From assembly GCA_945860705.1 (NCBI GenBank), contig CAMART010000004.1:1-64000 (forward strand): 64,000 nucleotides of DNA. Reading direction: 5' to 3'. Shown here piece after piece: positions 36,640 through 39,560 of the stretch (the first letter of the stretch is position 1; each line of letters opens with the position of its first letter). The DNA comes from Chitinophaga pinensis (GTDB taxonomy: Bacteria; Bacteroidota; Bacteroidia; Chitinophagales; CAMDFR01). The notes beneath the pieces were generated by a model. It made no database searches, was not told where the DNA came from, and saw only the letters and a program-made list of their open reading frames with translations. Both the position numbers and the translations under genes were made by a program.

Positions 36640-38130
36640 CTACTCCAAAACTCTACTAGTTATCTTCAATGCACCGTCTTTAAATTTCTGTGCATTTTCT
36701 GTTACTCTTCCTGTAAAATTAGTAGCTGTTTTTGTCACTGAGTTAGTTACTTTCAATGCGCTCTCTGTTACTTTCAGTGCGCCTTTAGTAACCATATCAG
36801 GATTTTCGTTGAGCATAAGTGGATTCAAAATTTCCAAAGCATTTTTTATCATGGTATATGCTTTACCTACGTTATTTGGTGTAGGAAACTTGATATTATC
36901 ATTCACACCAAAAAATGCAACAGATAGAAAATGTTTTAAGAGTGTAGTAAGTTCTCTATTCACAGCAGATAAAAGTGAAATAGGTTCTTTGTAGTAATCT
37001 TCACCTTTTTTTAAATATTCAAAACATGCTATTTTCAATTGTGGATCTTTTACTACTCCATACAATGCATCAGCCAATATATTTACTGTAGCATTGTTGG
37101 TATGATGTAGTTCATAGTATTCTTGTATTATATTATGAAGTTGTTTTGCATTATTCAAATCTATACCTAGTAATTTTTGACCAATACAATATATATCTGT
37201 AAGCGCTACAGTCATACCACCACCTGTGAGTGGATGGCGCATGTTGAGTGAATCACCAAGTAGTACCGCACCTTTTTTCAAAGTTGCTTGAGCAGGAACT
37301 AGCTGACTAGGCATTACTTTAAATTTACCTTCTTCTATTGCATCAAAATAGGCTGGCAGAATTTCTTCTGGAAGTTGTGGTGCAATTTTTTCTTTTAGAT
37401 AAGCAATAAGCTCTGGACTTTTTTTAGGAATTTCTTGACCCGGAAAATCAATCAGCATTCTGCATTCATTATTCGAAATAGGATATGCTAAAACTGGACT
37501 TGGCTCAGCTAAAATAACATGTCCATGATTTGGATAGGGTAAGTTTACATTTTTTAGAACTAAACCTAAAAAATACGAATTGATTACATTGGTAGCATTA
37601 GATAATTTTTGACGGAAAATTGAAAAAGCTCCATCACAAGCTACAGTAAGTGGCGCATGAATAAAATTTTCTGTCCCAGTTTTCTTATCTGTATATTTTA
37701 AACCGTATATATGTTCTTTGTCTTCTATAAAATCAGTGACTGTACCTTCAATAAACGTTACATTATCTAACGAGCGAATATAATTCCTAATAGAGCTAAT
37801 AAATTTTCCATATCTAAATCCTCTACCTTGAAAAACTTTTTCTGTATTTTGAGGATAGTGCAGTTGGATTCGTTCTTTATTTAAAAACAATCCATATCCA
37901 TCTACTTTCTGTGCATCTATTCCTTCAAGTAGATGCTCTAGTTTCATTTCTGTAAGCTTTTCTACACCGCCAGGCTGAAGCAATTCTCCAGTGATTCCAT
38001 CTTGTTCTATCAACAATTTTTCTATCACAGCTACCCGTTTGCCATTAGTTCCTAAATAAGCAGCTAAAACTCCTCCTGCAAGACCTGCTCCAATTATACA
38101 TACATCATATTCGTTATTTTCTGTGTTCAT
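36640..38130 (-). CDS. sqmo: Squalene monooxygenase (squalene epoxidase)
   Basis: Predicted to turn squalene into 2,3-oxidosqualene with O2, FAD and NAD(P)H. The FAD-binding fold opens DVCIIGAGLAGGVLAAYLG. Three blocks match eukaryotic squalene epoxidases closely: GELLQPGGVEKL (residues 48-59), GRGFRYGKFISSIRN (102-116) and LGDSLNMRHPLTGGGMTVAL (291-310). The last 49 residues form seven-residue repeats (ALKVTES, ALKVTNS and similar), probably an amphipathic helix on the membrane. The gene follows squalene synthase after 28 bp on the same strand. The family is clear; a different polyene substrate is possible but less likely given the neighbour. Confidence 0.9.
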   Translation of the reverse strand: MNTENNEYDVCIIGAGLAGGVLAAYLGTNGKRVAVIEKLLIEQDGITGELLQPGGVEKLTEMKLEHLLEGIDAQKVDGYGLFLNKERIQLHYPQNTEKVFQGRGFRYGKFISSIRNYIRSLDNVTFIEGTVTDFIEDKEHIYGLKYTDKKTGTENFIHAPLTVACDGAFSIFRQKLSNATNVINSYFLGLVLKNVNLPYPNHGHVILAEPSPVLAYPISNNECRMLIDFPGQEIPKKSPELIAYLKEKIAPQLPEEILPAYFDAIEEGKFKVMPSQLVPAQATLKKGAVLLGDSLNMRHPLTGGGMTVALTDIYCIGQKLLGIDLNNAKQLHNIIQEYYELHHTNNATVNILADALYGVVKDPQLKIACFEYLKKGEDYYKEPISLLSAVNRELTTLLKHFLSVAFFGVNDNIKFPTPNNVGKAYTMIKNALEILNPLMLNENPDMVTKGALKVTESALKVTNSVTKTATNFTGRVTENAQKFKDGALKITSRVLE

Positions 38131-38158
38131 TTTTTTTAATAAATTAATTTAAAAAAAA

Positions 38159-39349
38159 TTAAGAAACCATTCTATATATCAAATGCTGAAAGTCAAATGA
38201 TGGGTTATTCCAATCCATCGAACAAACTCGTTTGATATATTCTACTTGCGATTTTATTTTATTGTAATGTGGGTCGTTCGGGTTTAAATTGTTCTCGATT
38301 TTTATTGCACATTTTTTAAACTCAAACATGAGATTTTCCATATCATTGGTATAGTACATCAATTTTGCACCTAATCCTTTTCTTATTTTTACATTAGAAG
38401 TAAAGACTTCAGGATTGTTATACACTTTTGCCAATGTGGCAATAGCCATCACCTGTGGAATAGCACAAAATCTAAAGATTTGTCTATTTTTCAATTTGCT
38501 CATATAAGTAAGACAATCTGGTACATGCTGTAGTGCATTAGCTACTAGTTCATTCAAACAAGCCAACGAATTTGGTTCGTATGCTTTCTTTTCAAAGTTA
38601 CCAAGCACCGGCTCGTATTTGTTCCATACTTCTGTAGGCCAAAATATTCTACCAGATTCGAGATCTTCGTGATAGTCTCTGATGATATTTGTTTTTTGTA
38701 AAAACAAACCCATAGAATTGGAAAGTTCTTCTTCTGTTTGTAAGAAATTATTTTCTAAACCTGATGCAGAAAACAATCCAGACAAACCAATACCAACTAA
38801 GCCTGCTACATAGTGACAATACAAATCGTAATCGGCAATACTATTTACTTTTTTCTCAGCAAAATCTGCCATACCATTGCCCATACGCTTGGTGATATCA
38901 GATATTACTTCTCTATAAGCTGGTTTTAGATTTTTGTATAGTGCTATTACTTTTTCGAAATGTTTGAGCAAAATTCTGTAGTCTGCAGAGTCGCCTACAT
39001 TTTCAATATTCCAGCCATCTATTTCGCATTTTTCGAAGAATGTTCTAAGAAGTTCAAGTTTTGGTTCTTGTGCAAAATCCATATCATCTTCTATAGAATC
39101 GAGCCCTCTCAGTACTAAATAAAATACACAAACAGGGTCTCTGAGTTCTGCGGGAAGTTGTTGAATCACTACAGCAAAAGAACGAGATACTTTACTCAAA
39201 GAAACATAGCAAAAATCTCTATCATTGAGACCAGTGATGAGTGATTCTAAAGAATCTTTAGGCTGTTTAATTTTTTCTTTAAACTTGAGATTGTACATCG
39301 CCTTGATTTCCCAAGGGTGCATAAACGAATTGAAAAGCTCTTTAACCAT
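38159..39349 (-). CDS. sqs: Squalene synthase, eukaryotic-like (farnesyl-diphosphate farnesyltransferase)
   Basis: Joins two farnesyl diphosphates through presqualene diphosphate to squalene. Conserved blocks are FCYVSLSKVSRSFAVVIQQL, the first Asp-rich motif DSIEDD (84-89), YCHYVAGLVGIGLSGLFSAS and LFLQKTNIIRDYHEDLESGR with the second motif DYHED (225-229), followed by FWPTEVWNKY. These match human and fungal squalene synthase better than bacterial HpnC/HpnD or CrtB. The C-terminal membrane anchor of the eukaryotic enzyme is absent. It heads an apparent two-gene operon with sqmo. Confidence 0.92.
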   Translation of the reverse strand: MVKELFNSFMHPWEIKAMYNLKFKEKIKQPKDSLESLITGLNDRDFCYVSLSKVSRSFAVVIQQLPAELRDPVCVFYLVLRGLDSIEDDMDFAQEPKLELLRTFFEKCEIDGWNIENVGDSADYRILLKHFEKVIALYKNLKPAYREVISDITKRMGNGMADFAEKKVNSIADYDLYCHYVAGLVGIGLSGLFSASGLENNFLQTEEELSNSMGLFLQKTNIIRDYHEDLESGRIFWPTEVWNKYEPVLGNFEKKAYEPNSLACLNELVANALQHVPDCLTYMSKLKNRQIFRFCAIPQVMAIATLAKVYNNPEVFTSNVKIRKGLGAKLMYYTNDMENLMFEFKKCAIKIENNLNPNDPHYNKIKSQVEYIKRVCSMDWNNPSFDFQHLIYRMVS

Positions 39350-39406: not shown

Positions 39407-39560
39407 AGATAGGAGCATTTCGTAAAATGTTTGTATCGCTAAATTTAGGGGAAATAGCAATACGTAGAGTTTCGTTTCTGATGTAAAGATAAGTCGAATT
39501 AGCGAAACTACAAAATGATTTATACACAATTATTATTAGGTTAAGGCTTTGTTAAAATAC

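Follow-up and report, generated by a model that had tools for sequence, protein, structure and literature searches.

We consider it likely that the genome studied here carries a bacterial sterol pathway, in which the adjacent genes for squalene synthase (SQS) and squalene epoxidase (SQMO) form the entry module and an oxidosqualene cyclase (OSC) most likely makes cycloartenol. The host of the pathway is best read as a Bacteroidota of the Chitinophagales/Saprospirales type. The SQS-SQMO pair lies in the window, which is the whole stretch of 64,000 nucleotides that was analysed and belongs to a 139-kb contig of a genome (G000) of 2.94 Mb in 46 contigs, with a completeness of 100% and a contamination of 0.18%. 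In the proposed pathway, SQS would join two farnesyl diphosphates into squalene, using NADPH, SQMO would epoxidise squalene to 2,3-oxidosqualene, using O2 and FAD, and OSC would cyclise 2,3-oxidosqualene to a tetracyclic sterol, most likely cycloartenol, which presumably has a membrane role. We infer these three enzyme activities from the sequences, in which gene intactness, residues, co-occurrence, synteny and selection were observed directly. The genes of the pathway and the elements next to them are as follows.

36640..38130, minus strand: sqmo, squalene epoxidase (squalene monooxygenase), an FAD enzyme of 496 aa with matches to PF08491 and human SQLE.
38131..38158, minus strand: sqs-sqmo intergenic gap of 28 bp, from the ORF coordinates; gene order and short spacing recur in 58 of 59 loci.
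38159..39349, minus strand: sqs, one-enzyme squalene synthase (FDFT1/ERG9 type) of 396 aa with matches to TIGR01559 and human SQS.
39484..39514, minus strand: possible Bacteroidota-type promoter 5' of sqs (TTTG, 19 bases, TATCTTTA), a weak candidate picked by eye.
G000:C40:5453-7693, plus strand: OSC of 747 aa, the sole squalene/oxidosqualene cyclase in the genome.

The sqs product scored 472.8 bits against the NCBIfam model TIGR01559 (cut-off, 286.75), covering model positions 3-337 of 337, and matched human SQS (PDB 1ezf) with 49% identity (E 2.7e-94). The motifs DSIEDD, DYHED, YCHYVAGLVGIGLSGLFSAS and LFLQKTNIIRD named in the original prediction were all found in the ORF, and the alignment with human SQS showed that the Asp-rich DSIEDD and DYHED, FCAIPQVMAIAT and the VKIRKG block are kept. 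The C-terminal block of SQS serves the NADPH-dependent half reaction. No transmembrane anchor was seen in the protein, whose top hydropathy over 19 residues was 1.5. Assignment of SQS to HpnD or HpnC was rejected at 66.9 and 33.4 bits against cut-offs of 278.6 and 250.45, respectively, and assignment to CrtB was rejected with a model score far under the curated cut-off. A profile search of the genome found the HpnC/HpnD pair to be absent. The second SQS_PSY gene of the genome, on contig C14, is CrtB-like, adjoins a CrtI-like gene and scored 114.8 bits to HpnD (cut-off, 278.6). The possible promoter upstream of sqs was read against the Bacteroidota promoter consensus, TTTG / TAnnTTTG.

SQMO matched the Pfam family SE (PF08491; E 1.8e-84), and its best PDB match was human SQLE (6c6n), with 40% identity and SQMO residues 4-414 aligned (E 4.5e-89). 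The FAD GxGxxG, DG and GD/NMRHPLTGGGMT motifs are present, the previously noted GELLQPGG and GDSLNMRHPLTGGGMTVA were both confirmed in the ORF, and an alignment with 16 Bacteroidota homologues contained many invariant columns. Apart from the catalytic domain, the protein has only an amphipathic tail at its C-terminus (approximately residues 447-496). This tail, encoded at 36640-36792 of the window on the minus strand, has the character of an amphipathic helix with a period of roughly 11 residues, and its helical moment exceeded that of all 5000 shuffles. Among the homologues listed, the tail was present only in the window genome and its nearest relative, G313, and it is constrained (dN/dS 0.12). 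Judged from these features, it is perhaps a membrane or lipid-surface anchor.

As had been predicted, the two genes share a strand and are separated by 28 bp. A scan for SQMO covered 84,980 species genomes of bacteria and archaea, and the relatives it gave are described from the best 80 loci. The synteny set comprised 59 fetched loci with both SQS and SQMO, some of which are one contig fetched twice, and contained 42 distinct SQS proteins including that of the window. SQS and SQMO were co-strand in all 59 loci, and SQMO lay directly 3' of SQS in 58 of them, mostly within 160 bp; the adjacency is, therefore, not due to chance. The co-directional pair is predicted to be a co-transcribed operon. 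In one genome, G169 (L102:134-2677, minus strand), SQS and SQMO are naturally fused in a single 847-aa ORF, which suggests that squalene may pass between successive active sites.

In 34 of the 39 OSC-holding loci, OSC was the divergent neighbour immediately upstream of SQS, and genes read from their sequences as prenyl synthase, HMG-CoA reductase, GHMP kinases and type-2 IPP isomerase recurred as neighbours. In the window genome, OSC and the SQS-SQMO pair are on different contigs, which counts against the proposed reading, and the clustering of all three genes is seen in relatives. A large secreted-protein gene follows OSC in the window genome and SQMO in the congeners G337 and G325; this difference in position is a trace of a single ancestral cluster. 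The best explanation is that one Bacteroidota sterol island, with OSC divergent from SQS-SQMO and often with mevalonate genes, is ancestral and was later split in the genus of the window, among whose species the island is split in different ways. Two Fluviicola-type loci, L168 and L175, carry at about 8.9-19.8 kb nine contiguous co-strand genes from squalene synthase to a cycloartenol-type OSC, in the order SQS-SQMO-IDI2-HMGR-kinase-decarboxylase-kinase-prenyl synthase-OSC (the decarboxylase and kinase names were read from sequence), apparently a mevalonate-to-sterol operon. Taishania pollutisoli is one near relative that carries the island. A Fluviicola/Taishania-type sterol-mevalonate island with 79-94% protein identity also occurs in L164 (CP034120.1), a record titled Glaciecola amylolytica, in which the genes flanking the island look Bacteroidota-like; the record is either mislabelled or an instance of a striking transfer.

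The original prediction had noted that no cyclase is in the window and had proposed a search for oxidosqualene cyclase in the rest of the genome. The window indeed holds none, and the search found the OSC on contig C40, with the catalytic Asp motif WPITDCSAE (DCTAE/DCSAE type). OSC matched human LSS with E 3.5e-205 and squalene-hopene cyclase with E 1.9e-39, and it scored over the cut-off of TIGR01787 and under that of the narrow model TIGR03463. In the alignment with the human enzyme, H232, D455, C456, Y503, C533 and W581 are all conserved. A squalene-hopene cyclase, and with it hopanoids, was rejected as the lone cyclase of the genome is an OSC.

Of 249 sampled genomes of the order, 26 had SQMO, 25 had OSC and 25 had SQS; all three genes share one set of 25 genomes, and the 26th SQMO is a fragment at a contig end (Fisher p about 2e-33, kinship ignored). 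The three-gene pathway thus occurs in about a tenth of the sampled species of the order, in 9 genera, and in a class-wide sample of 295 genomes SQMO and OSC were found in one set of six (6/6). The dN/dS values against G313 were 0.03 for SQS, 0.08 for SQMO and 0.06-0.12 for OSC (two pieces), as compared with 0.03 for the neighbouring acyl-CoA dehydrogenase gene; a value for the P450, based on 23 codons, was left out of account. Although these values are rough, with synonymous sites almost saturated, they are low and show that SQS, SQMO and OSC are in use and under strong purifying selection.

The cyclised product may be modified further, which would extend the pathway proposed above and is compatible with it. 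The genes that bear on this point are as follows.

G000:C7:88995-90041 (= L225:8963-10045), plus strand in L225: ERG4/ERG24-family sterol reductase, full-length PF01222 match at 167-170 bits.
L004:1483-2811 (= G000:C36), plus strand: the single P450 of the genome, with plant CYP97 carotenoid hydroxylases and CYP102 as its nearest matches.
L247:1755-3566 (= G000:C15), plus strand: 603-aa ORF with an FA_hydroxylase domain followed by flavin reductase-like and 2Fe-2S ferredoxin-like domains.

The full-length reductase is a homologue of a bacterial Delta14-sterol reductase of solved structure, 4quv (E 1e-38), and strong ERG4/ERG24 matches were found in 20 of the 25 OSC-positive genomes of the order as against 17 of the 224 OSC-negative ones (Fisher p about 4e-15, confounded by kinship). 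The genome also has six FA_hydroxylase genes, which might take part. However, the reductase gene, which lies directly 3' of a thioredoxin reductase gene, is distant from the sterol genes, the reductase occurs in OSC-negative genomes too, and FA_hydroxylases are common and unspecific. CYP51, for which the original prediction had also proposed a search, was not found in the genome, whose lone P450 is closest to CYP97/CYP102, and the reductase, therefore, has no known Delta14 substrate. We regard modification by the reductase, and possibly by FA_hydroxylases, as a tentative extension that is rather less probable than its absence; the reductase may act on the cell's own sterol or on sterols from outside, and is a lead only. 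A broader proposal, that this mostly uncultured Bacteroidota lineage makes cycloartenol and converts it by a CYP51-free modification of the ERG24 family to sterols undescribed from bacteria, and that some cyclase-less relatives keep the reductase and may modify external sterols, is more speculative still. The P450 was rejected as a sterol-tailoring partner, since no more than three close species have a relative of it near an ERG24 gene, which is too weak; in combination with the CrtI/CrtB-like genes on C14, the P450 points to hydroxylated carotenoids. The 603-aa ORF on C15 has a gene for a Crp/Fnr-type regulator upstream.

As for the product of the cyclase itself, the product-steering sites of OSC read Y381 / H449 / I453, the signature of cycloartenol synthase, and all related OSCs covering position 453 have I there except one, which has V. 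Wei et al. 2016 (PMC4919349) found residue 453 to agree with the product in every bacterium they tested, and I453 went with cycloartenol without exception. The signature correlates with cycloartenol without proving it, and the product is, on these residues, most likely cycloartenol. The strongest functional anchor for the pathway is Fluviicola taffensis, a cultured Bacteroidota that, according to Wei et al. 2016 (PMC4919349), makes cycloartenol only and is without homologues of sterol genes downstream of osc. In Fluviicola-type loci, SQMO and OSC are seven genes apart, which agrees with the locus tags Fluta_3221 and Fluta_3214 of F. taffensis. Like the window genome, F. taffensis combines SQMO with a cycloartenol-type OSC, the SQS-SQMO pair is present in the Fluviicola-type genomes L168 and L175, and no CYP51 was found. 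Unlike in the window genome, where OSC is on another contig, the Fluviicola-type sterol genes stand in a single operon-like run with mevalonate genes, and the two OSCs are 51% identical. Furthermore, the window genome adds the ERG24-family reductase, which none of the five OSC-positive f31-family genomes in the class-wide sample has.

It is unlikely, but worth weighing, that the pathway is real and the main product of OSC is lanosterol, parkeol or a pentacyclic arborane-type triterpenol such as that reported for Eudoraea adriatica. OSC is 55-56% identical to those of two congeners as against 76% for SQS; it has diverged faster than SQS, and its product could, therefore, differ. Eudoraea, another Bacteroidota with SQMO beside a cyclase, also has a quite different OSC. 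Banta et al. 2017 are said to have found arborane as the product of E. adriatica. Its SQMO lies beside a divergent OSC as in the island described above, whereas its OSC is only 33% identical to that of the window genome and no SQS lies beside SQMO within the fetched locus. Against such a product, the Y381/H449/I453 signature is complete in the window genome, its OSC is nearer to the Fluviicola-type OSC (51%), for which a cultured relative makes cycloartenol, and the tree sets it clearly apart from that of the Eudoraea group.

The original prediction had derived 2,3-oxidosqualene from the pair, and hence either sterols or an unusual epoxy-isoprenoid. The first is supported by the complete OSC with intact catalytic residues and by the three-gene co-occurrence, and would make the pathway one to sterols; the second is not needed. 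It is very improbable that oxidosqualene or squalene epoxide goes to a non-sterol product while OSC serves something else: OSC is on a separate contig and a sterol tailoring cluster is not known in the window genome, but throughout the order the three genes are found together, usually adjacent, and the catalytic residues of OSC are intact.

The two enzymes had been called eukaryotic-like, and this holds for the enzyme type, not for the origin, as their closest relatives are Bacteroidota, they lie on Bacteroidota contigs and their GC matches. The best 80 SQMO loci were mainly of Bacteroidota or Methylococcales origin and included two records from Chlorobiota. The nearest SQMO relatives among them were MAGs titled Saprospirales bacterium and Chitinophaga, whose isolate names suggest a lake or reservoir source. 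Identities to the human proteins were 49% for SQS, 40% for SQMO and 44% for OSC, and those to Fluviicola and Taishania were 51-53%, 45-46% and 50-51%, respectively. In all three trees, the window proteins clustered with their own genus among bacterial homologues, in line with the check that had been proposed; the trees were made by a quick method with few eukaryotic sequences, which entered as lone long rows from human or plant, and they speak to grouping within bacteria. Wei et al. 2016 found that branching varies with sampling (PMC4919349). Contamination by a eukaryote or recent transfer from one, which might be suggested by the near-identical motif blocks and by SQS being about 49% identical to its human counterpart, is scarcely credible, and contamination is rejected, since the window lies on a 139-kb contig of a complete genome with little contamination, the genes have a GC of 33-34% on contigs of 31-32%, they occur in all three other congeneric genomes of the order sample (SQS identity, 76-91%), their ORFs lack introns, their operon arrangement is common to Bacteroidota and the two Chlorobiota records, and the proteins sit with their own genus in the trees.

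Beyond the Bacteroidota, SQMO also adjoins OSC in the methanotrophs (Methylococcales), which have been published to make demethylated sterols, and the OSCs are about 51% identical. Unlike in the Bacteroidota island, the methanotroph genes are in the co-strand order OSC-SQMO with no adjacent SQS found, and a P450 gene, about 23% identical to the P450 of the window genome, usually lies two places upstream. The eukaryotic SQS, squalene monooxygenase and lanosterol synthase belong to the same three families with conserved catalytic motifs, whereas the window SQS is without a visible TM anchor, the window SQMO begins at the FAD domain and the OSC has cycloartenol-type rather than lanosterol-type residues. 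The HpnCDE route of hopanoid bacteria leads to the same product, squalene, by different enzymes.

The pathway type is already known from a few bacteria, and the present case is a well-supported new example. No description of the pathway in this lineage was found in the open-access papers searched, which is itself weak evidence of novelty. Its distribution in the Bacteroidota is wider and more orderly than that given by the published examples consulted, Fluviicola and Eudoraea. Many bacterial SQS, SQMO and OSC sequences can now serve in tests of which way genes moved between bacteria and eukaryotes. Bacterial sterol synthesis matters for the question of how eukaryotic membranes arose and for the reading of fossil steranes, and cycloartenol-type lipids of environmental Bacteroidota are a testable source of biomarker signals.
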